DNA of 43,349 bases, taken from IMG/VR virus record IMGVR_UViG_3300032829_000017, positions 1 through 43,349 of that record. One strand, given 5' to 3'. Source of the stretch: a virus. The position numbers were made by a program, and so were the translations under genes. The notes below the pieces were generated by a model. The model was not told the origin of the DNA. It ran no database searches and saw nothing but the letters and a program-made list of their open reading frames with translations. Positions within the stretch are counted from its first letter, which is position 1; the number at the start of each line of letters is the position of its first letter. This document shows positions 2,206 to 34,026 of this stretch, one piece after another.

Positions 2206-3487
2206 GACTCTGAAGTTCCGGAAGCTGCTTCGACAGCCGATCCCCTATATCCGTTCTCCACATCGGGGACCCTGGCATCTTGATGCGTCCGAGCCTACGG
2301 TAGGCCGTCTGCTTGGCCGAGTAAACGTCATCTCCGGTCGCGCTCATGACGAGCACGTAGTCGCCGGCCGTGACCGGCATCTTCTCCTTGACGACCTTGC
2401 CGTCCCGCTCGATCGGCGCCTCGCCCATCATGACCTCGCAGAAATGAACGTGGTCTTCCATACGAGGGGTGATTCCGTAGATCGGCGAGCCGACGACTTC
2501 CTTTCGCGTGAGGTGCGAATAGGGAAAGTCGGGGACCGAGACGACGACGCCGATCGCCACCGTGTCCATGATGAAGGGGCGAGAATCCCGCCCCTGGGCG
2601 AGGTCGTAAAGCCACTCGACGGGGTCGTCGTGAAGCTCCTGCTGAATGTTGAATGTCGGCCAGCCCGGACGCATGGTGAACTCTAGAGGCCAGGGAATCC
2701 CTTTATGGTCGATGATGCAGTTGACATCGATGTATCCGCAATAGTCCGTCTTTGCGAGCGCGTCGCCCAGAGGCTCCAACATCTTGCGGGCCAGCTTGGA
2801 GCGGCTGACATACCGAAGGACAGTTCCTTGCTCTCCGGTCGCGACGCCCTTATCCCCATCCATGAGCTTCTTGAACTCGAAATTCTCACAGAAGCCGTCA
2901 TTAAAGCCATGGGGTCCGAACCATCCCCCGACAGCCATCTCGATACCGTCTATGAACTCTTGCAGAAGAAACGGCGCCTTCAGCTTGCCGAGCTTCTTCC
3001 AGCGTTCGAGCATGAAGATCATATCTGGTGGTGAGTGCGAGCAATAGGAGAGCGCCTTGTCGGCGTCCCCGCTCGGCTTGCTGACGTACCGGCCATTCGT
3101 CTTCTTCACGAACGCGATCGCCTTGTCGTAATCGCTAAACTCGTGGCTGACGGGCGTCGCGATGCCGTGCTTGCGCATCACCTCCATGCCGACCTGCCGG
3201 TCCAGCTCCCATTGCGCGGTCTCGCGAGAAACGGAGATCGTCGGAACGCCGAGAGCCGACTTCGCCATCTCGATGTCCTGGACGTATTTCGTGTTATCGG
3301 AATTGAAGACGAGATCAGCCCACCGAAACCAGTCCTTGTAGTCATCGACGAGATCGACCATGCCGCGGCCGATGTGCTCGGTCTTGGGCGTCTGTCGAAT
3401 GAAATGCTTGATCGTATGGCCGTCATTCTTACAGCGCCACGAAAAATCGAGCGCCGCTCCATTCGGGTCGATGACGAGCAGTCTCAC
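2165..3487 (-). CDS. PurD-like ATP-grasp ligase
   Basis: About 440 residues from the GTG at 3487. That start is chosen because it overlaps the upstream TAG (TAGTG) and begins RLLVIDPNG, like the N-domain of glycinamide ribonucleotide synthetase (PurD). Further PurD-like blocks are: the ATP-grasp Lys segment (GRYVSKPSG), LLQEFIDGIEMAVGGWF (the grasp and substrate region), FEFKKLMDGDKGVATGEQG (like the PurD DGD-GPNTGGMG segment), the metal-binding PLEFTMRPGWP near residue 280, and a C-terminal WRTDIGDRL like the PurD end. Known ATP-grasp enzymes join a carboxylate to an amine or thiol via an acyl phosphate. There are no other purine genes, so a different substrate (virion protein, nucleotide or DNA base) is plausible. 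It sits among late virion genes. Confidence 0.75.
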   Translation of the reverse strand: MRLLVIDPNGAALDFSWRCKNDGHTIKHFIRQTPKTEHIGRGMVDLVDDYKDWFRWADLVFNSDNTKYVQDIEMAKSALGVPTISVSRETAQWELDRQVGMEVMRKHGIATPVSHEFSDYDKAIAFVKKTNGRYVSKPSGDADKALSYCSHSPPDMIFMLERWKKLGKLKAPFLLQEFIDGIEMAVGGWFGPHGFNDGFCENFEFKKLMDGDKGVATGEQGTVLRYVSRSKLARKMLEPLGDALAKTDYCGYIDVNCIIDHKGIPWPLEFTMRPGWPTFNIQQELHDDPVEWLYDLAQGRDSRPFIMDTVAIGVVVSVPDFPYSHLTRKEVVGSPIYGITPRMEDHVHFCEVMMGEAPIERDGKVVKEKMPVTAGDYVLVMSATGDDVYSAKQTAYRRLGRIKMPGSPMWRTDIGDRLSKQLPELQSHGYATGMVFSLDH

Positions 3488-4740
3488 TAGGCGCCACGCG
3501 GGTTGAGCATCCACGGGGCTTTTGACGCCAGCGCGTAGAGCTGCGGAAGCGTCAGACCGGGGAACTGGTTCGCCGTCAAGGATGGTTGACCCGGCGCCGG
3601 AGGATTTCCTCCCGGAGCGAGAGCCGTCATTCCCGTCATGCCGTTGGGAACGCCAAATCCAAAAACGGTCCCAAGCCCAATCGGAGAGGCCGTTTGTCCC
3701 GTCTGTCCCGTCTGTCCCGTCTGTCCCACTTGTCCCATGCCGCCTCGCTGAGCTGGCGCCCCCGGAGGAAGACCGGAGGCGATCGCGTTCGACAGTCCGG
3801 CCGGGCTATCCACCGCTTGCCCATAGGCGTTCATGCCCAAGCTGGGATATCCGATGTTGGCAGGCGTTGGTGCGCTAGGCGCGCTCTTCATGAGGTTCTG
3901 TATGGCCGTGATCGTCGTGTTCGCGTTGCTTGGATTGTCCGCCAAGTAGCCGAGGAGCTGGTTGAGCTGAGTCACGATCGCTGGATTCGAGAGCGCATTC
4001 TGCGCTTGGGCCGATTGAGCATTGACCCCGGCGAGCCCGGCGGCCATGCCCGCCTTTTGCGCCATCGCGTTCATGATCGCGTTCTGCTGAGCCTGCTGCT
4101 GATAGGCCAACGGGTTGTTGGCCACGACCGCAAGCGGGCTCAGCATCGTCGGCTGAGAGACCGGCGTCGCGAAGCGGTAGTTCATCATGTTGAAGGACTG
4201 CGGAGCGGTCGATCCCACGCCGCCGCCGGCGACCCCCCCAGCCCCTCCCGGCGAGCCGCCGAAAGCGCCGCCGCCGATTCCAGGCGCTGCTCCGGGCGCC
4301 GCTCCCACGCCTGCCGGCGCTCCGCCACCGAAGGCTCCCACGCCAGATGAGACGCCTCCGTAAGATCCTGTCGGGCTTCCGGGGGCGGCGCCTACAACTC
4401 CTGCTGTGCTGACGCCTGGGGGACCATTTGCGGGACCAAGGGCTCCCGTTACTCCGAAGCCCATGTTTCCAGTTGGGGCGCCGCTCAGGCCGAATCCGAA
4501 GGATGATGGCGTGCCAACCGTGCTTGTCCCCGGAGGAGCGGCGGACGGGTCTCCGACGTTGCCAAAGCCGGGCGCGAAGCCCATGGCTTGCGCGACTGCG
4601 GCGACCGTGCCGGGATCGACGCCGACCGAGCTGGGAGCAGCATCCTGACCCTCAGCCGTGGCCGAACCGATGCCGCTGGTATCGCCGCTGGTATCGCCGC
4701 CGCCATCGCCGCCTGCTCCGCCGCCGCCGCCGCCTGCCAT
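3487..4740 (-). CDS. Gly/Ala/Pro-rich probable virion protein
   Basis: 417 residues. The N-terminus is a Gly run followed by an acidic segment; residues 60-200 are Gly/Ala/Pro/Ser-rich low complexity; a more ordinary helical part with many Asn/Gln (about 200-300) follows; near residue 345 lies a GQT tripeptide repeat. No enzyme motif. Its place between the transglycosylase-bearing internal protein and the ATP-grasp gene, and its resemblance in composition to the two Gln-rich proteins upstream, suggest an internal or ejected virion protein. ATG 4740 lies 4 bases after the upstream stop. Confidence 0.6.
   Translation of the reverse strand: MAGGGGGGAGGDGGGDTSGDTSGIGSATAEGQDAAPSSVGVDPGTVAAVAQAMGFAPGFGNVGDPSAAPPGTSTVGTPSSFGFGLSGAPTGNMGFGVTGALGPANGPPGVSTAGVVGAAPGSPTGSYGGVSSGVGAFGGGAPAGVGAAPGAAPGIGGGAFGGSPGGAGGVAGGGVGSTAPQSFNMMNYRFATPVSQPTMLSPLAVVANNPLAYQQQAQQNAIMNAMAQKAGMAAGLAGVNAQSAQAQNALSNPAIVTQLNQLLGYLADNPSNANTTITAIQNLMKSAPSAPTPANIGYPSLGMNAYGQAVDSPAGLSNAIASGLPPGAPAQRGGMGQVGQTGQTGQTGQTASPIGLGTVFGFGVPNGMTGMTALAPGGNPPAPGQPSLTANQFPGLTLPQLYALASKAPWMLNPRGA
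3699..3734. repeat. 9-bp tandem repeat coding GQT
   Basis: The 9-mer GTCTGTCCC (plus strand) is repeated in tandem with degenerate flanks, encoding Gly-Gln-Thr triplets in the leftward gene. Such repeats change copy number easily by slippage; each change keeps the frame. Confidence 0.7.
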
Positions 4741-15744: not shown

Positions 15745-16079
15745 CAGTTATGGCTCCATCCGGACGATCCGGACCCGTTGATGGACCATCCCGAGACGAG
15801 GATGGGCCATCCGTTCGGATCGTAGCAGACATAATCCCCTTCGAGAACCTTCAGCACGCCCCGTCTCGGAACGTGCAAAAGGCCGCTGCCGCCCTGGAAC
15901 TCGAATCCGCCTGGATATACGGCCCCGTTCTGAATGCGTACCCACGCCGCATTCTGATACGAGCCGTCCCATTGGATGTTCTGCCGCAGCGTCGCCGCAT
16001 CGGTGACCGTCAGGTCCGAGTTCATCACGAGCGCGCGAAGCGTGTTCGTCGCGCTCGTTCCCGCAGTCTTCAACGCCAT
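15744..16079 (-). CDS. Small probable capsid-associated protein
   Basis: 111 residues, beta-rich (VRIQNGAVYPGGFEFQGG, GVLKVLEGDYVCYDPNGWPIL). Immediately downstream of the major capsid gene (12-base gap), where decoration or head-fibre proteins are often encoded. No family is firmly recognised. The fold could be a small beta barrel. Confidence 0.6.
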   Translation of the reverse strand: MALKTAGTSATNTLRALVMNSDLTVTDAATLRQNIQWDGSYQNAAWVRIQNGAVYPGGFEFQGGSGLLHVPRRGVLKVLEGDYVCYDPNGWPILVSGWSINGSGSSGWSHN

Positions 16080-16091
16080 CGAAGACTCCTA

Positions 16092-17444
16092 TCAGCCGAA
16101 AGTCGAGGCGAAGGCGCTCGTGCACTCGATGCGCATGAAGAACTGATTGTTCAGGATCATGACCGCCAAGAACACCTTCCAGCCGACGACCCTCAGTTGG
16201 TTGAGCACATCGCTCTTGTCCGCCGTCGAGAGGTACGAGTACTTGATGTCGTCCAGCATGACAACGGCGAAGGCGCCGCGGCCGAAGATGAAGGCCGGAT
16301 AGACCGTGACGCCGGTCGTGTTGCCGGGATAGGCCGGCGGCGTCTGAGAGATGCCAGTGCCGGTTATCGTCACGACCGTGGACGCCGGAAGCTGCGTCGC
16401 CTGCCCGGCCAATGGTCCCTGCGTTGGACCGGACGGCGACAGGCCGAGGTTCACCGGCGCGTTCGTGGTCCCGATGTATACGTTGTAAGAGTAACCCGCA
16501 GTGCTCGGGGTCGTGACCTGGATCGAGCCGTTCGGGCCGGTCACGCTGATCGAATTGGAGACGAGGGCGACATAGCTCTCGTACTGGTTCTGTGTATCCT
16601 GTCCGGTGACGAGGATGTAGTAGGTTCCGGTGGCGAGATTGCCCGAGCTGGTCGCGGTCCCGTTGACCTGCGCATATCCGGTCCAGTAGGGCACCATGTT
16701 GGTCGAGGTGAAGCGGACGCCCCCCAGCGCCCCGACCTCGGCATTGTAGAGCTTGTTCACATCCGAATAGGACGAGGCCAGCACGAAGGTCGCGTTCTCG
16801 CGAAGGTCCTGCTGGCACAATTCGTGGATGACGCCGACGTAGTGCGGGACCCCGGTCGGGCTTTCCGCCGCCCGCGTGACCTGCCCCTTCGTCGCGTCTT
16901 CCTTGAAATCGGTCTGCTCATCGCCCATGAAGCGCGGCGCGCCCAGAGTCGCGAGGGCGCCGTAGGCCCGATTGATCTCGTGAAGGTTGAGAACGTCGCC
17001 GGTGACGAGAGATGGACGAGATCCGCGGCTGTTGACGTAGTTGATCTGGGTTCCGCCCATCAACCCATTGAAAGTGTTCCTTTCGAGAGTTTCCGCCACC
17101 GCCAGAGCGCAAAGCTGTTTGGCGATGTTGAACATCGGATGCTTGATCGTCAGTTCCGCGACATCGGTGAGCGTGATCTTGTCGCCCCACTGGATCGCGG
17201 TTCCCGAGACCATGGTGACGGTCATGTTCTGGCCGACCGGCGGGACGCCTTCAGAAAGCGACGTGTACGGCAGAGGGACGCGATTCCAGCGCGCTGCCTG
17301 ATAGACCACGCCGCGGCCCTTGGGCAGTTCCAGAGGATCAGCGAACTGATAAACAACCAGTCTTCGACGCGCGAGAGGAAGCGTTTCCTGCGCGATATAG
17401 GCTTCGACGTCGGCTTGAAAGGAAGCGCTCTGATTGATCGCCAT
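16092..17444 (-). CDS. Major capsid protein, N4-gp56 family
   Basis: 450 residues. Residues 36-100 carry the family pattern: PLELPKGRGVVYQAARW, then LSEGVPPVGQNMTVT and QWGDKITLTDVAELT. These proteins have the HK97 coat fold. Residues of about 258-378 form an inserted Ig/FN3-like beta domain (GTYYILVTGQDTQ, YSYNVYIGTTNAPVNLG) that would project from the shell; without it the core is about 330 residues, the usual size. ATG 17444 follows GGAGAGCGGACT. Directly preceded by the scaffold gene, as expected. Confidence 0.88.
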   Translation of the reverse strand: MAINQSASFQADVEAYIAQETLPLARRRLVVYQFADPLELPKGRGVVYQAARWNRVPLPYTSLSEGVPPVGQNMTVTMVSGTAIQWGDKITLTDVAELTIKHPMFNIAKQLCALAVAETLERNTFNGLMGGTQINYVNSRGSRPSLVTGDVLNLHEINRAYGALATLGAPRFMGDEQTDFKEDATKGQVTRAAESPTGVPHYVGVIHELCQQDLRENATFVLASSYSDVNKLYNAEVGALGGVRFTSTNMVPYWTGYAQVNGTATSSGNLATGTYYILVTGQDTQNQYESYVALVSNSISVTGPNGSIQVTTPSTAGYSYNVYIGTTNAPVNLGLSPSGPTQGPLAGQATQLPASTVVTITGTGISQTPPAYPGNTTGVTVYPAFIFGRGAFAVVMLDDIKYSYLSTADKSDVLNQLRVVGWKVFLAVMILNNQFFMRIECTSAFASTFG

Positions 17445-17489
17445 AGTCCGCTCTCCACTTCACGGGGAGAGCGGATGAACCGATCCCCG

Positions 17490-18248
17490 TCAGATCAACA
17501 CGCCCGTCAGGCGCTTTTCCAGGTTCGACCGAGCATCAGTCCCCCGACGCTCCGGCCTCACATCGCTTCGCCCCGTGTCCGGCCTCGCCTGCTCGCGACG
17601 GATGTTGTCCGCCCCTTTGGACCTGGCCTCGGCAATTTTCCCTTTGCTCTCGAGGAGCTTACGACCCAAAAGATAAGTCGCGATCGTCTCGCGATCGATG
17701 TCCCGTCCACGCTGCAATTCGGTGCGACGGACCTGCTCGACCTCGCTCGCGACCTTCTTGAAGAGCGGATTCGCCGCGGCCATGCCCTGAAACTTGGCGA
17801 TGTCCTGACTCTCGGCCATCTGCATCCGCGTGACGAGAAGTTCGTACTGATGACGCTTCTCGCTGCGCTCCAGACGGGCCTCGATCCGCTGCTCTGGCTC
17901 CATCATGGCGAGCCGCGCCGCGAATTCCTGGTCGCTCTCGAACTTCGGGCCTTGAGGCTGTTGCTGCTGTTGCGAGCCCTGCCGCAATTCGGCAAGCGTT
18001 CGCTCCAGCTGATCGGCGCGCTCTCGCGACGCGCGCACTTCCTCGCTGAGCTTCTGGAACCGCCTCTCGCCGCGTGTCGGCGGGCGTTCCTCTTCGGCCT
18101 CTAGCCCTTCTTGACCTTCGGCGCCGGAATCTTCCGACCCGGATGCTTCATTCCCGCCTTCGTCGTCGAGCGATCCGGCATTCCCGCCGACTTGCCGCTC
18201 TTCGTCATCTTCCGGAAGGGTGAAGGTTTCTTCATCGGGTCCAGCCAT
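17490..18248 (-). CDS. Scaffolding protein
   Basis: 252 residues. Very acidic N-terminus (about residues 1-55), coiled-coil middle (FQKLSEEVRASRERADQLER) with a Gln run, and a basic Arg-rich C-terminus (residues 215-252), the usual design of phage scaffolds whose basic end binds the coat protein. Immediately upstream of the capsid gene, with 45 bases between. ATG 18248 is preceded by a repeat-rich non-coding stretch that may hold a promoter. No sequence family was used; the call rests on composition and position. Confidence 0.75.
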   Translation of the reverse strand: MAGPDEETFTLPEDDEERQVGGNAGSLDDEGGNEASGSEDSGAEGQEGLEAEEERPPTRGERRFQKLSEEVRASRERADQLERTLAELRQGSQQQQQPQGPKFESDQEFAARLAMMEPEQRIEARLERSEKRHQYELLVTRMQMAESQDIAKFQGMAAANPLFKKVASEVEQVRRTELQRGRDIDRETIATYLLGRKLLESKGKIAEARSKGADNIRREQARPDTGRSDVRPERRGTDARSNLEKRLTGVLI

Positions 18249-21040: not shown

Positions 21041-23200
21041 TCACATCCTCGGCGCCGAGTTAGGGTCGCGCAACCTGTCCTGATGGATCATCCCCGGAGG
21101 CCCTTGCGAGCGCGGCCCGGACGGCGAGGCGCCGATGCGCGGTTGTCCGCCGCCACGCCCGCCGCCGCCCGGCTGAGGCTGGGGCTGTTGCTGTTGCATC
21201 TGCTGTTGCTGCGCGGCCTGTATGGCTTGAAGATGAGCCATGATGTGAACCTTGAAATAGTTTTTAGGATCGCCGTCCATCTGCGCGGCCTGCATGTGCG
21301 CCTGGATATGCTTTTGATGGTCGTCCATGATATGAACCGGGACGACGAAGCCCTGCGCAAGAAGCTCATTCTCCTGCTCGGGCTCCATCGACAACTCCAT
21401 GCGGGAGTCTCGGAATGTCAATGGCGCTAGACGCGGCCCAAACAGGTTCTCGATCATCTGAGAAAGGACCGGACCAAGATCAATCCTGTATCCTTGATAT
21501 AGTTGTGGCGGTATCCCTCGAAGGACGTTTAATCCCGCAATCTGCTGCTGCATCTGCTGAGCATTTCGATTCGCCTCCACTCCAAACCATCGGAACTGAT
21601 ATAAACGATCCATTCTTACTAAAGGAATTTCGATCATATTTGAACGCATTCCTGTCGGACCGTATTCGCGAACTCGTAAAGACTTGTCGCGAAACTGATG
21701 GTCGAGCTCCAGCATTCTTAGGAGAATGGGAGAAAAGATTTCGTCTTCAAGCACCGTCACCGCGTCGGAGGTCGTGAGGATGTCGATCTGCTGCTCGTTG
21801 GCGATCTCGGCCTGATTTGGCTTTTTGCGCGGCGTATTGGCGATTCCGGTTATCTGCGCCGGGTTGACCGAGAGAGACTGGAAAATCTCGTTCTTGGCGG
21901 TCGCGACGATCTCGAGGCCGTCCTTCCACAAGGGCGGCATTTGCGCGAATTGGGTGGACTGCGGATCGGTTTCCCAGATCGCCGCCAATGACAGGATCAT
22001 CGAGCCGACCTTCGGGTTCTTTTCCGGGTCGGTCATGATGATCGGCATGAGAGCGTAGGCGGCGCTATCCATCGCCTCGTTGCAGGCGTCGTTGGCCTGG
22101 TACTGCAGATCGGCCACGGAATCGACCTTCGGAACGCCCTTGAAGCAGCCATCGATTTGGTCGATCGGCGCGCTGAGAATGTCGATACGATCCGACCAGT
22201 AGGGGTTGCGCTTGGCCGATATGACGCGATTGCGGCCGGCGTAGTAGGCCAGGCATAGCCTTCGCTCGCCCTTGATCGTGAGCTTGATCCAGGTCCGGTA
22301 GACGAGGGCGTATTTGCCGCGTCCATCGCCCTTGATGCCCGCCGCATCGATCATGGGCTTCATCTTGTCGGCGTTCTGCTTGAATTTCTCCTCGTTCTTC
22401 AGCTCCTGCAAAAGCTCCTCGCCGAACTCCTCGTCGATCTCGTCGAGCGCGATCTTTCTCATGATCATCGCCGGCGTCCAGCGGCAGAGCGTCGTCACCG
22501 AGCCGCCTTGCTCGATGGCGTCTTCCAAGCTCGTCGCCGTGACCGGAAGGACGAGCAGATCGCAATCGGCGATCACCCGGACCTCGGGCGCCCCTTGAAC
22601 GAGCTCCTCCTCCTCGATGTCCTCTATTTCCTCCAAGGCCTCCAATGGCGCTCCCTGCTCGTCCTGAGGCCGCACCGAGACCCTTTGCGCGACGTGGCGC
22701 CGCTGCTCCTCCCACGTCACTTGGACGGTGACCTGCCCCTCGATGTCTCCATTCTTGCAAAGCGCCGGCGCAATGCGCGTGCGAAGCTTAGTCTGGCGGA
22801 CGTAATGCTCGAGAAGAGCCATCTCCGTCTGCGGCAGCGTGCCATCCTCGCTCGTAACCTCGACATGCCGGCCCGACATTGGAAAGAGCTGATTGACGAA
22901 TCGCGTCTTGCGCGCCTCGACCGCATTGCGCACGATCGGCACGAAAATCTGTGAGTTCCCGTTGTAGAACTGGCTATTGCCGAGGACGCAATTGTAGATG
23001 TCCCAATTGTCCATTGCGTTGTCGGAGCGCTCGGCCTGCTGGTCGAAGCCTTTTTCGATGTCCTTGAACGCTTCGAGGAGCGCGTCGCGGATGTTCTCCT
23101 TGCGGCATAGCTGCTCCGACCGATCCATCCTTTCTTCGGCTTCGGAGACCTCGCGGACTTCTCCCGGATCGTTTCGGACCTTTTTCGCCGCTTTTTTCAC
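21041..23200 (-). CDS. Portal protein
   Basis: 719 residues, the size of podoviral portals. Helical N-terminus, then YNGNSQIFVPIVRNAVEARKTRFVNQLFP, a typical wing entry; a middle with KGVPKVDSVADLQYQANDACNEAMDSA and NPAQITGIANTPRKKPNQAEIANEQQ, the region of the portal stem; and a Gln/Gly-rich C-terminus (residues 640-700) that could form the barrel or a disordered tail. The start is GTG 23200, two bases after the stop of the upstream gene, with GGGGTC in front. Position between tail-repeat protein and lysis-like genes is unusual; portals are usually next to terminase. Confidence 0.8.
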   Translation of the reverse strand: MKKAAKKVRNDPGEVREVSEAEERMDRSEQLCRKENIRDALLEAFKDIEKGFDQQAERSDNAMDNWDIYNCVLGNSQFYNGNSQIFVPIVRNAVEARKTRFVNQLFPMSGRHVEVTSEDGTLPQTEMALLEHYVRQTKLRTRIAPALCKNGDIEGQVTVQVTWEEQRRHVAQRVSVRPQDEQGAPLEALEEIEDIEEEELVQGAPEVRVIADCDLLVLPVTATSLEDAIEQGGSVTTLCRWTPAMIMRKIALDEIDEEFGEELLQELKNEEKFKQNADKMKPMIDAAGIKGDGRGKYALVYRTWIKLTIKGERRLCLAYYAGRNRVISAKRNPYWSDRIDILSAPIDQIDGCFKGVPKVDSVADLQYQANDACNEAMDSAAYALMPIIMTDPEKNPKVGSMILSLAAIWETDPQSTQFAQMPPLWKDGLEIVATAKNEIFQSLSVNPAQITGIANTPRKKPNQAEIANEQQIDILTTSDAVTVLEDEIFSPILLRMLELDHQFRDKSLRVREYGPTGMRSNMIEIPLVRMDRLYQFRWFGVEANRNAQQMQQQIAGLNVLRGIPPQLYQGYRIDLGPVLSQMIENLFGPRLAPLTFRDSRMELSMEPEQENELLAQGFVVPVHIMDDHQKHIQAHMQAAQMDGDPKNYFKVHIMAHLQAIQAAQQQQMQQQQPQPQPGGGGRGGGQPRIGASPSGPRSQGPPGMIHQDRLRDPNSAPRM

Positions 23201-23201
23201 T

Positions 23202-26200
23202 TCAAGACCCCATCAAGCGGCCCATGTTATAGTGGAACGGCCTGTCATGTGCATAGGTGTCTGGCGGCGGCGGCGGAGGCGGAGTTGTTCCAAAGGCGAT
23301 GGAAGAAGTGTTGCTGACCCGCACGACTGGCTGGTCGAAGGGGACCTGCCACGCCATGCCCGAGATCGGCGTCGGATGGATTGTGACCGGCAACAGGATC
23401 TCGGTCTGCGACGAGACGCGGTTCAGGAGATTGCCGAAGGCCGCCCACCAGGCCATGCCGGCGATCGGGGTGGGCTTGAAACCAAACGGATAGGCCAGCA
23501 AATCCGCGGGGTTGATCCGAACCTTTGGCTGCTCGAAAGCCACATGCCACGCCATCCCCGAGATGGGCGTAGGCGTGAAGCCGAGCGGAATTGCCGTCGG
23601 TGCGGCCTGAATGAGGACCGGCGCGGACACTCCGAAGGGGACCTGCCAAGCCATGCCAGAGATGGGAGTTGGCAAGAAGCCGAAAGGGAAGGCGATTGGA
23701 TCGGCCGCCTGTAACCTGACCTTGGGCTGCTCGAACGAATAGAACCAACCAAAGGGCGGCGGCGGAATGGGCGGCACATAAGGCTGATACGGAATTCCCG
23801 CATCGAGACGAATCGTAACCTTCGGCTGATCGAAGGGCGTGAACCACGCCATTCCGGAAATCGGAGTCGGCGCAGAAGGAACGGGCAACGATCGCGCGCT
23901 ATCCCCGAAATCGACGCGGACCTTGAGCAAGCTCTGATCGAAGGGCGTCCACCAAGCCATTCCCGAGATCGGGGTTGGCTTGAAGCCGAACGGATATGGG
24001 AGCGGGTCGGCCGAATTGATCTTGATCGTCGGTTGATCGAACGCTCTCCACCACGCCATGCCGGAAATGGGCGTCGGCGTGAACCCTAACGGGTTGGCGA
24101 CAGGAGACGCCTGATTGACCGTCACTATCTTCTGATCGAATGGAACCTGCCATGCGATCCCGGAAATCGGCGTCGGCTTGAATCCAAAGGCATAGGAAAT
24201 CGCGTCGGCCGGATTGATATTGATCTTCGCCGGCTTCTCGAACTGGACCTGCCAAGCCATCCCGGAGATGGGAGTTCCGCTCGTCACGATCGGATGAAGC
24301 GGCGCCGCAATCCCCTCAAGGGACCGATAGGTGATCGGCCTCCAAGGGTCCGGATCGCTCGAGGACGCCATCACCCAGCCCTCGAGCTGAGCGAGGGGGG
24401 TGGCCGGCTGGTCGATCACACCGCCGATCTTGACCTTCGGCTGATCGAAGCTGGCGAACCACGCCATGCCCGAGATCGGGGTCGGCGCGCTCGGCAGATA
24501 GGACGACTGTAGCTTCTCTCCGAAATCGACACGGATTTTCACCGATCGCTGGTCGAAGGGGACTTGCCATGCGATGCCGGAGATCGGCGTTGGCTTGAAT
24601 CCAATTGGCTGCGCTATCGGATTGGCCTGATTTATTTTTACCGTCGGCTGTCCGAATGGAATCCACCAGGCCATCCCTGATATCGGAGTGGGCGTGAAAC
24701 CGAGCGGGTTCGCGATCGGCGACGCCTGATTGACCGTCACCTTGGGCTGGTCGAAGGCGAGGAACCAGGCCATGCCCGAGATGGGCGTCGCCTTGAATCC
24801 AAATGGATATGGGATTGCGTCTGCGGGATTGACCTTGATCTTCGGCTGGTCGAAAGCGGTCCACCAGGCCATGCCGGAGATCGGAGTTCCAGTCGCCACA
24901 ATAGGATGCAGCGGCGGCGCGATCCCTTCCGGGGTGCGAGCGGTTATCGGCCTCCATGGCTCGAGATCGCTCGACGAGGCCATGACCCAATTTTCGAGCT
25001 GGGCCGAGGGAACGACCGGCTGATCCAAATGACCGCCGAGCTTCACCTTGGGCTGGTCGAAGGGGACCTGCCACGCCATGCCCGAGATCGGCGTCGTCGC
25101 CGCCGCCACGTATCGGAAAAATCCCTTCTCGATATGTTGTGTAAACGGCCGTGGCTTCGGCTGATCGTCCCACGCCATGGGAAGCCAGGTGAAGGAAGCC
25201 GCTGGCGCCCACTTGAACGACGCGATGCCGCCGCTCGTGGAGTTAGAGCCGACGCTGGTTATGGACCAGGTCCACGTCTGCGCGCCGCTCGATGTGTAAT
25301 AATAATGGCCAGCAAGATCGGCGTCCTCGATATAGTCGAAGTCCGTCTCGCCGGTGTAGGTGCAGAGGTCGAAGATCGCGCCCGATGGGGCGGTCACGCC
25401 GAGGCCCGGCCCTTGTCCAAGGCCGATGGCCGCGATCGTTATGCCGCTCGTGCTCGTCGGCGACGGGGACGGCGACGAGGTGAAGGTCGAGAGGCCGTTG
25501 ACGTTCTGCAAGCTCGCGACGCTGCCGCCACTATCGAAAGGATTCGAATCAGCGCCGATAACGTCAAAGAACCTCCATGATAGACGTACGTCTGCGCCGC
25601 CTCCCACACAAAGGACAGATAGGTTGGAATTGGATGTCGTGTTCGCGCGGTACCAAATACCGAATCCCGATCCGGCCGAGGTCCATGTTCCTCCCTCGCT
25701 GTCAGTGATCGTCTGGGCGTTGAGAGCCGGATCATCGCAGGTGATGACGCGAAGATTGCCGTAGCACGGGCTTTGCAGAAGGTAGCCGCCGCTTGCCGGA
25801 AAATGATCGGTCGTATGGTGCATGACCCGGACGAGCCGCCGAGGTCCGCCGGCGACGCCTTGCGAGCTATTCAGCTTCAGAGCGACGGCGATCGTGTTGA
25901 AATGATCGGTGTCGCCGATCATTGTCACGGTTGGATTGATCGCCGCGCTCGTCGTTTGCACATAGGCTTGGCAACCGTGGTAAACGCCATCGGCGTTTAT
26001 CCATCCGATGTCGGCGTTGAGCAGGGTGAAGTTGTTTCCCGCTCTGATGTTGATTGTCGTATGCGCCGGACTCGCATCCGCGACGACGAAATAGTTCCAG
26101 ATCAGATTGCCACCGGTCGCATCGTTGTTTGTCGGCGTGAAGGAGCCAGCGGTCAGGGTTGGGCCGACTTGGTGTGCGGCATTGGTGGACCCCGCGCTCG

Positions 26201-27149
26201 GACTCGTATCGATCCCGGTCAACTCAGAAACCGTATACTGAAATCCATTAACCGACGCGCCGAAGGTGATGGTGATCCGCGTCACCCCGGCGGCGGCGTT
26301 CGGAAACACATAGACCGACGCATCGAGGTTGCCGCTGCCAGCATTGGCATGGCTGACCGCAGCGCCCCATGTTCCGTTGATGTTGTCAGCGACCGACGTG
26401 ATCGATGTGCCATTCGGATACATGAAGCCGAGGACAAGGCAGTTCCCGGCTCCGACCGCATTGGGAAGCGGGCAGACAAAGGCGTTGCCGGACTGAGGAC
26501 TTCCGATCGATGGACCGTAGCTGCCGCCGCCGATGTGCTGAACGACCTGACTCGGCTGTGGCGCGTACGGCAGAGCCATGAGTTCGAGCGTCGCCGAGAC
26601 CGAGTTTCCAGTCGTTCCGACGTTGACGTTGGTGGACGACCATGTCGTCACCCCGCCCTCGGTGTCATGTCCAGCTATAGATGCCGCTCCAGATACGAGT
26701 GAGCTTTCGTTCGTCATCCCGGATGGCGCGGTGCTGATCGTCTGAGCGTTATTGGTGCAAAATGCGAACCCTAAGACCCACGAATTGCTGCTGAAATTGT
26801 CGGCCAGCGTCAGAGCCGGATAATTGACGGTGCCGGTCGTGGACGAAGATGAGGCGCTCGGGCCGATGCCGAGTGTGTAGTTGGTGTCCGGCCTATAGAC
26901 ATGACAGGTGAGCAGAGCGGCGTTCGTCCATGTTCCCGAGGCGTCGCTCGTTCCGGTGGCCCATTTGTAGCCGATCCTGATGCTCGAGGTCGTGCCGGAC
27001 TTGGTGAGGATCGATATCCATCCGGAGGGAAGGCTCGGCGCTGTCGTCGAGGCGCGGCCCGCACAAATGATGATGAGGTCGCCGGCCTGATGCGTCGGCG
27101 GAGTGACCGTCGTCGTGTTGGATGTGGACGTGCCGACGAGGATGGTCAT
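23202..27149 (-). CDS. Giant surface protein with TPISGMAW tandem repeats
   Basis: 1,315 residues. Residues 1-430 contain beta-rich domains with a repeated pattern (HQAGDLIIICAGRAS..., GNCLVLGFMYPNGTSI), like modules of phage tail and bacterial surface proteins. Residues of about 685-1275 comprise 15 copies of TPI[SA]G[MI]AW plus one degenerate copy, each followed by x2-PFDQPxVKI and a variable 10-15-residue linker, such as NPADAIPYPFGFK or NQASPIANPLGF. Five-copy blocks are themselves duplicated. A poly-Pro stretch precedes the C-terminus. ATG 27149 overlaps the upstream stop as ATGA; no signal peptide. Probably a fibre, spike or adhesin. The repeat family is not recognised. Confidence 0.65.
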   Translation of the reverse strand: MTILVGTSTSNTTTVTPPTHQAGDLIIICAGRASTTAPSLPSGWISILTKSGTTSSIRIGYKWATGTSDASGTWTNAALLTCHVYRPDTNYTLGIGPSASSSSTTGTVNYPALTLADNFSSNSWVLGFAFCTNNAQTISTAPSGMTNESSLVSGAASIAGHDTEGGVTTWSSTNVNVGTTGNSVSATLELMALPYAPQPSQVVQHIGGGSYGPSIGSPQSGNAFVCPLPNAVGAGNCLVLGFMYPNGTSITSVADNINGTWGAAVSHANAGSGNLDASVYVFPNAAAGVTRITITFGASVNGFQYTVSELTGIDTSPSAGSTNAAHQVGPTLTAGSFTPTNNDATGGNLIWNYFVVADASPAHTTINIRAGNNFTLLNADIGWINADGVYHGCQAYVQTTSAAINPTVTMIGDTDHFNTIAVALKLNSSQGVAGGPRRLVRVMHHTTDHFPASGGYLLQSPCYGNLRVITCDDPALNAQTITDSEGGTWTSAGSGFGIWYRANTTSNSNLSVLCVGGGADVRLSWRFFDVIGADSNPFDSGGSVASLQNVNGLSTFTSSPSPSPTSTSGITIAAIGLGQGPGLGVTAPSGAIFDLCTYTGETDFDYIEDADLAGHYYYTSSGAQTWTWSITSVGSNSTSGGIASFKWAPAASFTWLPMAWDDQPKPRPFTQHIEKGFFRYVAAATTPISGMAWQVPFDQPKVKLGGHLDQPVVPSAQLENWVMASSSDLEPWRPITARTPEGIAPPLHPIVATGTPISGMAWWTAFDQPKIKVNPADAIPYPFGFKATPISGMAWFLAFDQPKVTVNQASPIANPLGFTPTPISGMAWWIPFGQPTVKINQANPIAQPIGFKPTPISGIAWQVPFDQRSVKIRVDFGEKLQSSYLPSAPTPISGMAWFASFDQPKVKIGGVIDQPATPLAQLEGWVMASSSDPDPWRPITYRSLEGIAAPLHPIVTSGTPISGMAWQVQFEKPAKININPADAISYAFGFKPTPISGIAWQVPFDQKIVTVNQASPVANPLGFTPTPISGMAWWRAFDQPTIKINSADPLPYPFGFKPTPISGMAWWTPFDQSLLKVRVDFGDSARSLPVPSAPTPISGMAWFTPFDQPKVTIRLDAGIPYQPYVPPIPPPPFGWFYSFEQPKVRLQAADPIAFPFGFLPTPISGMAWQVPFGVSAPVLIQAAPTAIPLGFTPTPISGMAWHVAFEQPKVRINPADLLAYPFGFKPTPIAGMAWWAAFGNLLNRVSSQTEILLPVTIHPTPISGMAWQVPFDQPVVRVSNTSSIAFGTTPPPPPPPDTYAHDRPFHYNMGRLMGS
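23310..25100 (-). repeat. DNA of the TPISGMAW repeat array with two ~0.61-kb super-repeats
   Basis: Equivalent points of the array lie near 25100, 24488 and 23872, about 612-616 bp apart. Each super-repeat encodes five motif copies in the same order, with linker types DQP-AQLE-ASSSD, NPADAI, NQASP, NQAN/NSAD and VDFG. The remaining part, 23872-23310, is less regular. This is a two-level tandem duplication, consistent with past recombination between motif copies. Confidence 0.75.
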
Positions 27150-29311
27150 GGCTGCACAAAGGGCGTGCCAGCGTCAAAGCGCGCCTTGGCGGGAAGACCG
27201 GAATAGCTTGTGCAACCAGTCCCGCTCGCCGAAGGGATGCGCGTCGCGTCGCTCGATCCCTGCGAGTTGAAGGGAGGCCAGGTGTACGAGCATGAGGACC
27301 CCGCCGTAAAGAACGACGGCTCAGAGGTCAGATAGAACGAGTTCGGCAATGTGTGCGAATACCCATTCGCCCAATCGGCTATTCCCGGCGTCACATAGTC
27401 GTAGTTTCCGTGCTGGAAGATATAGCCGCCACCGTTGAGGTTCGGATCCTGAACGCTCTGCTCGAAATTGCTCCATCCGAGCATCCATATACAACCTATG
27501 TAGGTGTATAGAGACTCCACATAATTGCAGTTGTAAGCCCAATGGTTGGCCGTGGTGGAGTATCCCGGAAATCCCATGACGTTGCCGACATAGCCATACC
27601 AGTAGCTATAGGCCTGCGGTCCCGTCGCCCTTAGAACCCCGTTCTGACTTCCCACGACCTGATTGGCGAAATCGTTTACCGTCGAGCTCGTCACGGGATC
27701 GACGAAGGCCGTCCGATATCCTCCAGAGAAGTTACGGAAATAGACATGGTAGACGCTGTTCCCATGCGTCATCTCATTGTCCATGTTGGAGGTCCAATTG
27801 CCCTCGAACAGGACGCTATGGGCGCCGGTGAAGTGGCTGGCGTTGAGTCCCGTATCCAGCCAAGTCGGTCCGATGCAGGCCATGTAGGCCTGATCGTCCA
27901 TGTAATTGTACGCGATGACCGAGCCCGCTCCTCCGGCCCGGCCGGTCATTCCCTTGCCGCCAAAGCGGGTGATGCTGTTTACGATGAGGACTTCCGTTGA
28001 TCCATTGTCGATGGTGATCGGGTACTCGTCGCCATTGTTGCAGCTTGAATAGGCATCGGCGATGAAGCTCGTGTCGATCTGAGCGCGCACCGCGCTCGAC
28101 AGGACGACGCCGTCCGCTTCCCAGCCGCGCGCCTCGACGTTCCGCATCCAGCAATAGGCGCAGAACTCGATTGTGACGGCGGCTCCGGCCGGCCGATAGA
28201 TGGAAAGGTTCTCGAGTCCCGCGTATTGGGCGAAGGCGGGCGTCGGGTTGTAGACGAGACCGGCATGTCCGCCGCTCGTTCGCATTGCGATGGTCAGAGG
28301 GTCGTCGAAGGTCAGGGTGCAGTTAGCGCCGGGGCAAGGACCGGCGCCGAGAGACTTTATGACGTGAATTTCCGCGTTGACCCGATCGCAATACCAAGAA
28401 TAGGCGCACCACCACGATCCATTGGTCGCCGGGTCCGTCGTCGGGTCGATATCGGCGTTGCAGCAGGTCGGGTTGAATTTGGAATAGGCGACGCGATTGG
28501 TCGCCGGCGAACCGGACGAGCTGAGAAAGTCGGACGTGGCCCATATCTGGCCCTGCCCCATCGGATCGGTCAGATACTGACCATGCGCCTGCTCATCGAT
28601 CCTGACCCACATCCCGACCGAGAAGGGAGATAAACTGTGGACCTGGACCGTGGTTGCTCCCTGAGCCGCGTCGGCGTCCAAGGCGGTCGCGCAGGACGAC
28701 GAGGCTGTGTTGTCGTAGGTACAGCTTCCCCATTGCCCCGAGGCGCCTAGAAGGAAGGTCGATATGCCGGTGCATCCCGTGTTGGGGGAACCGCAAGTGC
28801 GCCCGCCCTGGAAGAAGATGCCGCCGTTCGGAACAAGGATTTCGGTCGGGCAATAGACATTCGTCTGGCTCGCGGGCGTCGAGGAATTGCTGCATGTCCC
28901 ATTGCCGCGAAGGGTTACGCCCTTGCCGATGGTGATCGGCCCTTCCGACTGATCGATCTTGAAGGTCCCGGCCGCCAATTGAATGATCGTTCCGGCCGGG
29001 CAGTTGGCGATCGCCTGCGTGATCTTCACGTAATCGTCGCCGCTGGCCGGCGGGGTGATCCCGGTCGCCGCGAGCGGCATGGTCTCGCCGGCCTGTCCGG
29101 TCGTGCAATTGGTCCGCGCCGCATCCACCGTGTCTATGGAGCCCTGCGGCGCATTCAGAAGTCCGGCGTTCTTCCAGTTCGCGTACACATCATCGTAAGC
29201 CGGAAGGACGCCGCTGGTCGGATCCCCCGAGCTTACGACGCCATGGAAGGTCGCTATGGCGGGAACGATGAGCGCCAGGATCGCCAGGATCACAAAAATT
29301 GCTCGTCGCAT
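27146..29311 (-). CDS. Exported beta-helix (pectate-lyase-like) protein
   Basis: 721 residues. Signal peptide MRRAIFVILAILALIVPAIA then TFHGVVS. Residues 80-150 have the Pectate_lyase_3-like entry of right-handed beta helices (DDYVKITQAIANCPAGTIIQL, AGTFKI, ITIGKGVTLRGNGT). Later rungs: LENLSIYRP, WMRNVEARGWEADGVVLSS, VLIVNSITRFGG, SVLFEGNWTSN. Such helices form polysaccharide-cleaving tail spikes. Twenty-two Cys, all after the signal peptide, strongly suggest an oxidising compartment. ATG 29311 follows AGGGAGCGCC. A secreted or virion-borne depolymerase is likely, with substrate unknown. Confidence 0.7.
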   Translation of the reverse strand: MRRAIFVILAILALIVPAIATFHGVVSSGDPTSGVLPAYDDVYANWKNAGLLNAPQGSIDTVDAARTNCTTGQAGETMPLAATGITPPASGDDYVKITQAIANCPAGTIIQLAAGTFKIDQSEGPITIGKGVTLRGNGTCSNSSTPASQTNVYCPTEILVPNGGIFFQGGRTCGSPNTGCTGISTFLLGASGQWGSCTYDNTASSSCATALDADAAQGATTVQVHSLSPFSVGMWVRIDEQAHGQYLTDPMGQGQIWATSDFLSSSGSPATNRVAYSKFNPTCCNADIDPTTDPATNGSWWCAYSWYCDRVNAEIHVIKSLGAGPCPGANCTLTFDDPLTIAMRTSGGHAGLVYNPTPAFAQYAGLENLSIYRPAGAAVTIEFCAYCWMRNVEARGWEADGVVLSSAVRAQIDTSFIADAYSSCNNGDEYPITIDNGSTEVLIVNSITRFGGKGMTGRAGGAGSVIAYNYMDDQAYMACIGPTWLDTGLNASHFTGAHSVLFEGNWTSNMDNEMTHGNSVYHVYFRNFSGGYRTAFVDPVTSSTVNDFANQVVGSQNGVLRATGPQAYSYWYGYVGNVMGFPGYSTTANHWAYNCNYVESLYTYIGCIWMLGWSNFEQSVQDPNLNGGGYIFQHGNYDYVTPGIADWANGYSHTLPNSFYLTSEPSFFTAGSSCSYTWPPFNSQGSSDATRIPSASGTGCTSYSGLPAKARFDAGTPFVQP

Positions 29312-29319
29312 GGCGCTCC

Positions 29320-29724
29320 CTAGAACATCAAAAGAGAGCCGTCGCTGAAGGTGATTTGCTCTCCGTTCTGCAAGTTTGTCGTGGTCAAGAAGATATCGGC
29401 CGGCTCTCCCTGATCCACAGTTAGGCCTTTGACGCGGGTCACGCCATTCGAGTCACGGAGCTCCGCTTTCATGGCGATCCCGGTCCCGGTAACGGGTCCT
29501 ACGAGAGGAGTTCCAAGCGCGGTGGCGACGCCTCCGGAGAAGGAGAAGGATGGATAGGCCAGCGTGATGGTGGCGAGGACCCCGGTTCCGTCACCGTCCA
29601 AGGTCGAGTCGCCGATGACGAGGGAGCCCGCGGCGCCGCCGTTATCGACCGCCTGAATGTCGGACTGATTGAATTTATGGGCTGGCGCGAATTGCGAGGG
29701 CCGCTTGAAGAAGTGTTGCGCCAT
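29320..29724 (-). CDS. Small probable virion protein
   Basis: 134 residues, beta-rich (ATITLAYPSFSFSGG, AMKAELRDSNGVTRVKGLTV, QGEPADIFLTTTNLQNGEQITF). Resembles short fibre or head-associated proteins in composition. ATG 29724 lies one base after the upstream stop. Part of a run of seven small genes between terminase and the exported beta-helix gene; no family named. Confidence 0.6.
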   Translation of the reverse strand: MAQHFFKRPSQFAPAHKFNQSDIQAVDNGGAAGSLVIGDSTLDGDGTGVLATITLAYPSFSFSGGVATALGTPLVGPVTGTGIAMKAELRDSNGVTRVKGLTVDQGEPADIFLTTTNLQNGEQITFSDGSLLMF

Positions 29725-29725
29725 G

Positions 29726-30013
29726 TCACCCCAGCTCGGCGCGCAGCGCCTCCTTGATCGCGTTCAGACGGCCTTCGAGAGAGATGCGCGCCGCGGAGAA
29801 GATCGCCGCGCTCTCATCCTTTGTGAAGGATGGAGGATTTTCCCTCTGCATAGGATCGAATACGGGCTTTCCGACCGAGCAATGAGACTGTGCGTCATCA
29901 GCCGCCTCGATGATATAGACGCGCGCTCCCCTAACTATGGCGTCCTCAAGACGGGTCATCAGAGTCTTGACTTCGCTATAGTATTTCGGGTCGGTTAGCT
30001 CGTCGTCTACCAA
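29726..30013 (-). CDS. Small helical protein of unknown function
   Basis: 95 residues from TTG 30013. This start is chosen because GAGGAG lies 7 bases in front and the upstream stop is 4-6 bases further; the longer open frame to 30112 lies over the upstream zinc-finger gene and lacks a ribosome site. Residues KYYSEVKTLMTRLEDAIVRGARVYIIEAAD suggest helix-strand structure. Unknown function. Confidence 0.55.
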   Translation of the reverse strand: MVDDELTDPKYYSEVKTLMTRLEDAIVRGARVYIIEAADDAQSHCSVGKPVFDPMQRENPPSFTKDESAAIFSAARISLEGRLNAIKEALRAELG

Positions 30014-30300
30014 AGCGCTCTCCTCGCAACAGCTTCCTCGATCTCGATCTTGGCCTCGAAGGGCGTGCATTCCCTCCTGGACTCGCAACGCGGACAGATG
30101 TGGCGCCAGCACTTACGACAGAAACCCACATCCTTCATGAAGTGAGTTCCGTCCGAACGGTAGACGAGGACCTGCGGCTTGCCTTGATCCCGCTCTGTGA
30201 ACGAGATCGCATTGCAATGTCCGCAGGTCGTGGTGTCGTGCTCGATCGGCCGCGAGAAACGCGGGTCGATGATGATGCTGTAGCCTTCGGGGTTCCGCAA
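30007..30300 (-). CDS. Zinc-finger-like small protein
   Basis: 97 residues. CGHC near residue 26, then CRKC and CPRC near 61-71 with a further Cys, a double-knuckle pattern for one or two zinc ions. Starts with TTG 30300 after GAGGAG, which overlaps the stop region of the upstream gene. Zinc-binding small proteins in this place could bind DNA during packaging or regulate late genes; the sequence gives no more. Confidence 0.6.
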   Translation of the reverse strand: MRNPEGYSIIIDPRFSRPIEHDTTTCGHCNAISFTERDQGKPQVLVYRSDGTHFMKDVGFCRKCWRHICPRCESRRECTPFEAKIEIEEAVARRALW

Positions 30301-30303
30301 GGA

Positions 30304-30798
30304 TCACTCCTCGATGAACCATTGCATCCCGACGGTTGAGGCGTAGTTTGGAGACTTACATCGACCTCCTATGCCGGCCAAGTTCACCGCCTTGACGATG
30401 AGACAAGAGGATTTGTCCTTCGCCTGCCAGCGTTGCGAGGCGCGCTGATTGAGGCCGATGAAGAATACGGACGAGTTCGCCGTATAGGTCGGCTCGGTGG
30501 TGGCGTGATCCGTCAAGTAGGTCAGGAGCGCCGCCGCATCACCGCCTCCGGTATCGACCGGATTCGGCGTGGTGGAGGTGCCCCCGGTTCCGGCGGTGGT
30601 GCTAACGGAAAAGTCCCAATTGATCGGACAATCGGTCGAGTTAGGGACATCGGTGGCTCCGATCTCGAATTCCCAAATCCATCCGCGTCGAAGCGTCGTG
30701 GCGCCGGTCGCTGCGTAGGCTTGCACCTGCGTTTTGTAAGTCGTCGATGTCGCCTGCGGTGTTCCCGACAACTGGTTGCTGATTGCAAACAAAGCCAT
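30304..30798 (-). CDS. Conserved-looking small virion protein
   Basis: 164 residues. MALFAISNQLSGTPQATSTTYK, a region WIWEFEIGATDVPNSTDCPINWDFS and a C-terminus with QRASQRWQAKDKSS...LAGIGGRCKSPNYASTV recall a recurrent phage late-gene family of unknown function. Beta-rich; three Cys. Likely structural. ATG 30798. Confidence 0.6.
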   Translation of the reverse strand: MALFAISNQLSGTPQATSTTYKTQVQAYAATGATTLRRGWIWEFEIGATDVPNSTDCPINWDFSVSTTAGTGGTSTTPNPVDTGGGDAAALLTYLTDHATTEPTYTANSSVFFIGLNQRASQRWQAKDKSSCLIVKAVNLAGIGGRCKSPNYASTVGMQWFIEE

Positions 30799-31977: not shown

Positions 31978-33945
31978 CTACCCCGGAAAGGCCGATGCGT
32001 ATCTCCGGCCGTCCTTGGTCATAGCATAGTGGACGGGATGGTCCAAGGCCTCGCTCACGCTTTTCAGAATTGCGGCGAATCCCTCTAATGGCTCGAGGAG
32101 GAGGGCGTAGGAGTTCGCTTGCGGCTCGACCTTGTCGGCGTCTCGGGCGTATCCGCCGGCAAAGCCGCGGAGCGTCCAGCTTCCGCGTCCGGAGACCGCG
32201 AGCGCCGGTTCCCCATGAGAGACGCGCCGCATGAGCGAGCGGATTTCCTCCCTCCCATGAGAAGGATCGCCACCACGAGCCATTCCAATGTTTGCGGAAC
32301 GAGCCGCAGCCCTGAGTCCATAGATGGAGTATTCATCGAAGTGCCTTCTCGGCGCCATGAGCCTGATCTGAGCCGACTGGCCCACAATCAGCCTCGCCTC
32401 GGTCAGAATGTCCTTCAAGGATATGCCCGCATCGCCCTCCATGATCCAGTCGGCCAGGATGGCGAGGACGCCGCGGTGCGATTGGACCAGGATTCCCGTC
32501 GTGATCCGGTTGTCAGTGTTTACGAGAAGCCAGATTTGGGCAGTCTCCTTGACCTTTATTTCCTCGCGGATGAACTCCTCGCGGAACTCGTCATAGATCG
32601 GGTATCCGCTTCTGATCTTGAGAAGGTATGCGAGGGCGTTCGGGGCGTCTATATGTCCGTTTGGGAAGCCAAGAAGCTGCGCCCGCAGCTCGGGCAGGTC
32701 CACGGCGAACTCGATCTCTCCGGCACGGAAGAAGGGTTGAAGACCTCGTATAAAATCCAGTTTTCCTCTAGGTGGGGACAAAGACCGAATCGGCAGAACA
32801 ATTCCTCTTTTCGACGCCTCCGTTCGTATTGGCTGCATGGCCCACTCGTTGAGACCGGTCTCTTCAAAACCAATCGCAACAGGCGCGTAAGTCTCGTTAA
32901 CACGGAAGATGTCCTCAATTATCTGATCCGGTGAGAGTTTTTCCGCTTTGGCCTCCCACACGACGAGCTTGCGGCCGATCCAGGATGCAACAGCCGTCCC
33001 CGTAGTAGCAGAGGATTTTAGCGTCGTTCTCGCCGGATCGTAGATAGCATAAACCGCATGATACGACCGTTTGCGTGGGATCACGCGGAACATGTCTTCG
33101 GTAAACACTCGGGATGAAGGGTCTACGCTTTGGCAAAGATACTCCTGCAAAAAGGACTCTGTCTCTCCGCTTCTCTCGTACTGCTCCTGAAGAGCTATGC
33201 ACTTCGGAATCGGGAACATAGAGGGCCATGTCGAGATCAGTTCTCCATCATCGTTTCTGTAGAATAGGGGAAAGACGCGGGTGAGCCAGTCCGGATTCTT
33301 CGCAAAAGTCGGCGCGAGCGCTTCCGGATGAAGGGGCGTCGCAGCCATACGGATTCGTCCGGACGGGGATAGCGCGGGCATGACCGTCGATGAGAACCAA
33401 CGATGAGTCTTCCGTCGCGCTTCCGGCGTTGCGACGTTACCGCTTTCCCAACTTTCCACATCATCCAAAAAGATGAGATCCGGGCGAAATTCAAGGTACT
33501 TCACTCCTCTCAACGACTGCCCGTTGCCATAGGCCTGGATCATGACGCCGGTGCTCGTACATGCGCGAGTGTCCTGCCATGGGTCGCCCGGACCGATCCC
33601 AAAGGCCGCCTGCAACCACTCGTTCTGCTCCAGCTCCCTCTTGATGGCCGCCAAGCGCTCCGCGGCCCTCTGCTCGCTCTCGGAGATGATGAGGCAGTTC
33701 TTGGTGCGGCCGAAGCCGGCGGCGATGCAGATCGCCTCCTCGGCCAACGTGGACTTGGCGAAGTGGCGGAAGGCCATCGTGAGAACTCGAGGATGATCGC
33801 TGTGCCAGTCCTTTATGACCTGCTCGTGGGCCTTCGGAGTGACATGAGAATGCCGATCCCTGAAGATCGATCGGTGGGCGAGGACCGGGTCGATGACAAA
33901 CTCGGAAAGAAGCGTCTCTCGCGCCTCATCGAGATCGATGGACAT
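31978..33945 (-). CDS. Terminase large subunit
   Basis: 655 residues from ATG 33945 (GGGGAGAG in front); a TTG 12 bases upstream is less likely. The ATPase part has a deviant Walker A (MAFRHFAKST, residues 57-66) and Walker B FLDD (about 159-162). The nuclease part has IYDPART with D303, FEE near 361-363 and IDAPNALAY with D433 as metal ligands. It packages DNA into the prohead through the portal. After the nuclease about 200 residues remain (450-655), longer than many large terminases, containing a separate mixed fold (TAQIWLLVNTDNRITTG...). No certain small subunit is identified. Confidence 0.88.
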   Translation of the reverse strand: MSIDLDEARETLLSEFVIDPVLAHRSIFRDRHSHVTPKAHEQVIKDWHSDHPRVLTMAFRHFAKSTLAEEAICIAAGFGRTKNCLIISESEQRAAERLAAIKRELEQNEWLQAAFGIGPGDPWQDTRACTSTGVMIQAYGNGQSLRGVKYLEFRPDLIFLDDVESWESGNVATPEARRKTHRWFSSTVMPALSPSGRIRMAATPLHPEALAPTFAKNPDWLTRVFPLFYRNDDGELISTWPSMFPIPKCIALQEQYERSGETESFLQEYLCQSVDPSSRVFTEDMFRVIPRKRSYHAVYAIYDPARTTLKSSATTGTAVASWIGRKLVVWEAKAEKLSPDQIIEDIFRVNETYAPVAIGFEETGLNEWAMQPIRTEASKRGIVLPIRSLSPPRGKLDFIRGLQPFFRAGEIEFAVDLPELRAQLLGFPNGHIDAPNALAYLLKIRSGYPIYDEFREEFIREEIKVKETAQIWLLVNTDNRITTGILVQSHRGVLAILADWIMEGDAGISLKDILTEARLIVGQSAQIRLMAPRRHFDEYSIYGLRAAARSANIGMARGGDPSHGREEIRSLMRRVSHGEPALAVSGRGSWTLRGFAGGYARDADKVEPQANSYALLLEPLEGFAAILKSVSEALDHPVHYAMTKDGRRYASAFPG

Positions 33946-34026
33946 TTCTCTCCCCAACTCCTAGCCACCGATCGAGGGTGTAGAAGATGACGAGGAGGGC
34001 TACGAACTGTCGCCATCCGGAATCCG

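Follow-up and report, generated by a model that had tools for sequence, protein, structure and literature searches.

The window analyzed here is the whole of a 43,349-base IMG/VR virus record and encodes a tailed phage. Its repeat gene, REP (23202..27149, minus strand), encodes a protein of 1315 aa in which an N-terminal beta-type region is followed by a Trp-Pro array and then by a Pro-rich tail. The reading that we favor, and to which we give somewhat more credence than doubt, is that REP is an accessory protein of the virion surface or adsorption apparatus with a Trp- and Pro-rich arm, and that it is inherited as part of a cassette with two companion genes, B164 and D98. Adsorption and decoration proteins rank among the least recognizable parts of phage genomes. 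Here a repeat family, two companion genes and their gene order recur in otherwise different uncultivated phages, and they match no curated family and none of the phage records that we searched.

The repeat gene and its array

The start of REP shares 4 nt with the upstream gene, which encodes a beta-helix protein of 721 aa that is a probable tail spike (27146..29311, minus strand; weak matches to PF13229 and DUF1565), and its stop immediately precedes the start of the portal protein gene (21041..23200, minus strand; phrog_1216, 6.5e-9). On the minus strand, the first unit of the array begins at 25094 and the final unit ends at about 23271. An earlier note on this DNA had described fifteen copies of TPI(S/A)G(M/I)AW plus a degenerate one, and our count in REP confirms these 16 units: the 15 exact copies have Ser in 14 cases and Ala in one, Met in 13 and Ile in two, and the degenerate unit (23670-23768, minus strand) reads PPPPFGW. 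The PFDQPxVKI sequence that was said to follow each unit stands as a consensus and not as an invariant feature, because F[DE]Q is present in 12 of the 16 units, the Phe itself being found in all of them. Unit size is 33-36 aa with the exception of two units of 69 aa, both of which contain an extra Trp segment (NWVMASSSDxEPWRP) that is perhaps a decayed unit. The repeat part contains 96 Pro in 608 residues.

The linker types had also been noted to follow the same order in two blocks of about 0.61 kb. This order is indeed present, with blocks of 612 and 615 bp and a period of five units, and a third, more diverged block was found besides these two. Block 1 occupies 24483..25094 (aa 686-889; units of 69, 33, 33, 33 and 36 aa), block 2 occupies 23868..24482 (aa 890-1094; units of 69, 34, 33, 33 and 36 aa) and block 3, which includes the degenerate unit, occupies 23373..23867 (aa 1095-1259; five 33-aa units, or 5 x 99 bp), while the last unit (23271..23372) runs into the poly-Pro tail, all on the minus strand. 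Linker similarity at a lag of five units has a mean score of 57.2, compared with 15.2-26.2 at other lags, and the lag-5 score was equalled in none of 10,000 permutations of unit order.

The repeat copies are old and the motif has been maintained by selection. Amino acid identity is 71% between blocks 1 and 2, 52% between blocks 1 and 3 and 58% between blocks 2 and 3. Blocks 1 and 2 have a dN of 0.21 and a dS of 1.16, and across all block pairs dN is 0.21-0.43 and dS 1.16-1.56, which gives a dN/dS of about 0.18-0.27. In the codons of the eight-residue motif, 48% of third positions differ between copies, against 1.7% of first and 0% of second positions; since third positions vary and first and second positions barely do, the selection acts at the protein level. 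A recent expansion through slippage or gene conversion is excluded by the dS of about 1.2-1.6 and the scrambled third codon positions. The array is missing from the Tandem Repeats Finder output for the window DNA because the DNA copies are too diverged.

The wider repeat family

The earlier note had recognized no known repeat family in the unit, and our searches of Pfam, NCBIfam and PDB sequences agree. Pfam gave no match at E<=1 for the whole of REP and chance-level matches only for the repeat part, NCBIfam and the PDB sequences gave no match for the repeat, and no Pfam or NCBIfam match to the repeat domain was above a curated cut-off. Two PHROG names, phrog_36014 and phrog_35038, were rejected as unspecific, since one of the two models matched 7 and the other 2 of 14 control genomes, and plasmid matches (Klebsiella, E 0.06 and weaker; E 4 and 9 in a further search) were treated as chance. 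What the earlier note missed is that the unit has a wider family of repeats and a conserved gene neighborhood.

This family was followed through loci in uncultivated virus contigs, gathered by pattern scans and by searches for relatives and designated by L-numbers. Among the loci then collected, the unit profile of REP finds L096/L144 (1.1e-15), L094 (5.4e-11) and L007 (3e-11). The L007 protein has 436 aa and about ten units, of which SGMAWFEPWDQPVVTRPRF is an example. Pattern scans of viral contigs yielded further proteins with REP-related units in L150, whose repeat gene is a near copy of that in L094, and in L151, which combines GMAWYQPLSQP and GMAWYRQFDQP, and so both the PLSQP and the FDQP cores, within one protein. 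A scan for the pattern W[FY]xPLSEPVR confirmed that proteins of this kind exist, with 46 loci of which a few are chance matches; a presumed link of these proteins to Bradyrhizobium was not confirmed. Our repeat pattern scan of genome contigs returned 47 loci, none of which was counted as a repeat gene. The core of the broad family, W-x-x-[PA]-[LFW]-[SD]-[EQ]-P ("WFxPLSEPVR"), is present in dozens of uncultivated virus contigs, and unit number differs widely among the relatives of REP, from about 2 to 19 across the family, with up to 19 units by profile in SEPVR proteins.

The WFxPLSEPVR proteins (among L047-L092) are like REP in the Trp at the start of the unit, the P-[LFW]-[SD]-[EQ]-P core, a similar period and the B164-D98 neighbors. 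They differ from it in having VRxKPGL...QQ after the core, whereas REP units have TPISGM before the Trp and another linker. A C-terminal segment that follows the final unit (A[TIL]E[TI]K..., with repeated EIG) is common to the SEPVR proteins of L057, L059, L078 and L087 and was not seen in REP. Some contigs hold at least two repeat genes, for example L083 (548-7628) and the contig on which both L059 and L062 lie.

It would be very unlikely, in our view, that SGMAW and SEPVR units are unrelated and alike through Trp/Pro composition only, the REP array then being a private low-complexity expansion. This alternative finds its argument in the direct comparison of the two: SEPVR profiles gave no match in the window at E<=1 or E<=10, and the window profile aligned to the SEPVR profile with hhalign at E 0.029, a score equalled in 4 of 30 and 6 of 100 shuffles. 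Against it, bridging proteins connect the two types, and both have the B164-D98 neighborhood and a matching B164 tree, described below. A two-unit SEPVR profile built without L007, A2, finds L007 (5.2e-6 and 3.4e-5); it matched 9 of 12 virus records, the other three being L096, L094 and L008. A profile of window and L007 units aligned to SEPVR at E 1.9e-4, with none of 30 shuffles scoring as high, and bridging units aligned to SEPVR units at E 1.4e-4, with none of 100 column shuffles as high, in hhalign profiles of bridging units that hold offset duplicates from double cuts at adjacent aromatic residues. The kinship thus runs from the window through L144, L094, L007 and L151 to SEPVR; the core common to SGMAW and SEPVR units is short, and the kinship rests on these bridges and on gene order, because the window profile alone misses SEPVR and vice versa. 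Judged by these comparisons, the REP unit (SGMAW...FDQP) appears to be a derived branch of a broad family of phage repeats that carries no name.

A named domain with which the REP unit can be compared is BACON, which has about 90 aa; the REP unit is 33-36 aa long, Trp/Pro-rich and without a Pfam match. Tandem repeats of BACON domains are known from crAss-like phages; like the REP array, they are copies of one domain within a single protein, evolve by duplication and belong to uncultivated phages (PMC6949934). Tandem-repeat phage proteins are already known; neither the REP unit nor its family nor the cassette turned up in the libraries and literature searched.

The N-terminal region and structure prediction

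The N-terminal region of REP (25170..27149, minus strand; aa 1-660) probably consists of three diverged domains of about 200-235 aa. Its aa 5-192 match phrog_36177 with an E of 4.6e-24, and aa 4-151 match phrog_13352 (minor tail protein) with an E of 3.6e-9, in an alignment confined to positions 123-275 of the 702 in the profile. A tblastn search found the N-terminus in 13 phage records, including Mycobacterium phage Kumao, whose gp32 is annotated as a minor tail protein and lies among other minor tail genes. The domain is also found in Myrna gp114 and in a Rhizobium phage RHph_TM16 protein, neither of which is annotated as a tail protein. At aa 4-192, REP matches minor tail proteins with this N-terminal domain (phrog_13352 / phrog_36177), such as Kumao gp32; it differs from them in its repeat part, which has no alignment to any of the 13 phage records.

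From the sequence alone, the array had been proposed to form a long beta-structured fiber or rod with two strands per unit. A fiber-type virion protein is plausible given the N-terminal domain and the neighboring genes, but the beta-rod part of the proposal, with its two strands per unit, was not borne out. AlphaFold2 modeled four REP units, from a shallow alignment of 10 rows, with a mean pLDDT of 36.7 and no strands; a SEPVR protein (11 rows) gave a pLDDT of 38.9 and one strand pair, located in the segment C-terminal to the repeats. Because these alignments are shallow, low confidence is no proof of disorder, and neither a rod nor disorder can be claimed for the REP array from the models.

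These models bear on the alternative that the array is a receptor-binding beta rod, in which each unit would add two strands to a trimeric shaft whose tip binds a cell-surface ligand. We regard this as unlikely, the strandless prediction for REP and the low values for both proteins speaking against it, together with a Pro content (96 in 608 residues) that is unusual for beta shafts. On its side are the regular spacing of 33-36 aa with Trp and Phe at fixed places, the beta-helix spike that adjoins REP and the wide variation of unit number among relatives; in addition, trimeric shafts can escape AlphaFold monomer runs.

Companion genes and genomic setting

The window has the neighborhood of the SEPVR family, with B164 and D98 upstream of REP. 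B164 (30304..30798, minus strand) encodes 164 aa and has no family match in Pfam or PHROG. Directly downstream of it, D98 (30010..30300, minus strand) encodes a zinc-type, Cys/His-rich protein of 97 aa with the pattern TCxHC...CxxC...CPxC...C; its alignment has nine invariant columns, including one His and seven Cys, and its Pfam matches are to single members only, mostly zinc-finger, at E 3e-4 or weaker. A tblastn search with the window genes showed B164 to be common to L007, L144 and L073, and a B164 profile search found it in 22 places, next to both repeat types. The window B164 is 55-67% identical to the copies beside other SGMAW-type repeat genes. In L083, B164 sits between two repeat genes, with the larger one upstream of it and the smaller one downstream.

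Companion genes were counted in distinct repeat loci with 2 kb or more of upstream sequence; 12 loci duplicating the contig or sequence of another were removed beforehand, and L151, which scored below the profile cut-off, was included manually. B164 is present in 15 and D98 in 14 of the resulting 20 loci. The five without B164 are L052, L056, L066, L070 and L150, the last being SGMAW-type. Neither gene was found in any of 108 loci without repeats, a rough control because these loci are portal relatives or had been hit by unrelated patterns. A tree of B164 groups the five SGMAW rows in a single clade with full support (100/100), and the 12 SEPVR rows all fall outside it. Two other small genes lie close by in the window: A134 (29320..29724, minus strand; phrog_3758, E 1.8e-4), which encodes a small virion protein and is near the repeat gene in 6 more distinct loci, and C103 (31294..31599, minus strand), which encodes a small protein and is shared, among the loci examined, only by L007 (and L046 on the same contig).

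The association with B164 could be taken to mean that the REP array is a flexible tether bearing linear docking motifs, in which every W-x-x-P-F-D-Q-P segment would bind one copy of some folded virion protein and the whole would act as a multivalent staple instead of a rod. AlphaFold gives no fold for REP or SEPVR units, the array is Pro-rich, the motif is conserved while the linkers vary, and B164 is tightly associated, with a matching tree; but B164 is missing from 5 of the 20 loci and, with AlphaFold alignments as shallow as those described, low confidence is no proof of disorder. We consider this account improbable. Its extension to a portable three-part surface kit is doubtful to a similar degree: B164 would decorate the virion, D98 would be a zinc-dependent assembly factor and REP a multivalent tether docking one B164 per unit, so that unit number would set arm length and valency, repeat type and B164 would co-diverge because they bind each other, and the kit would move between phages with unrelated capsids. 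Should REP and B164 be physically coupled, changing the number of units would be a simple way for a phage to adjust how long or how multivalent its surface arm is, with B164 as the first candidate partner.

In the cassette reading that we favor, an N-terminal beta-type region of the minor-tail kind would carry a long Trp/Pro arm of about 16 units, and this arm would travel with B164 and D98 among phages with different capsid proteins. We infer a virion location and a role in attachment for REP, and B164 and D98 would help to mount or assemble it. The head proteins of cassette carriers do differ, with phrog_1357 in the window (major head protein, 16092..17444, minus strand; 8.4e-35), phrog_212 in L144 and phrog_3437 in L007, and neighbors of repeat genes in other loci match tail-fiber, baseplate-wedge and tail families. 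In the window phage, the cassette together with the beta-helix spike would have been placed between terminase and portal. The gap between the terminase large subunit gene (31978..33957, minus strand; phrog_38, 1.8e-56) and the portal gene is 8.8 kb and is occupied by the cassette and the spike. Portal relatives were found in seven contigs, and in L154, L155 and L157 the portal follows within a few hundred bases after the terminase, with no repeat gene or cassette between them and with beta-helix-like proteins after the portal. In L152, whose portal is 68% identical to that of the window, the frame that ends immediately before the portal is a different one and not a terminase, and therefore the site may be variable. 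The insertion between terminase and portal was seen in one phage only, from a metagenomic contig, where misassembly is possible.

Searches of 50,697 phage records gave no match to the repeat (the REP repeat part or SEPVR), to B164 or to the window D98; the L063 copy of D98 had one match, at E 0.2, and a match of L007 to Streptomyces phage Zuko (E 3) was treated as chance. For hosts, the SEPVR profile matched none of 385 genomes in the class of Azospirillum sp. B4, 274 in the class of an Achromobacter genome, 247 in the phylum of an Acidobacteriota MAG and 246 in the phylum of a Thermomonospora genome; these blanks are weak, because only 15-23 first-look candidates were scored in each of the larger genomes. 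As a positive control, the SEPVR profile matched 9 of 12 virus records. One of 13 further entries in the host search had a SEPVR match, which was short, broken by 2 stops and judged chance. In the class of Azospirillum sp. B4, B164 matched none of the 385 genomes and D98 one, over 25 positions, again judged chance.

Several further features were observed. The portal relatives L156 (7074-8270) and L157 (16037-17305) encode a membrane protein that is polytopic and about 400 aa long and that we take by eye to resemble an O-antigen polymerase or ligase. In the window, a 66-bp tandem array of 5.2 copies with 89% matches lies at the contig end (42899-43243) and consists of Gly/Ser/Tyr-rich coding repeats, and a PurD-like ATP-grasp gene is found at 2165-3514 on the minus strand (TIGR00877, E 6.2e-22, below its cut-off; PF01071, 6.1e-9). 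An open frame of 784 aa (15750-18104, plus strand) runs antisense to the head protein gene and is probably a by-product of codon composition.
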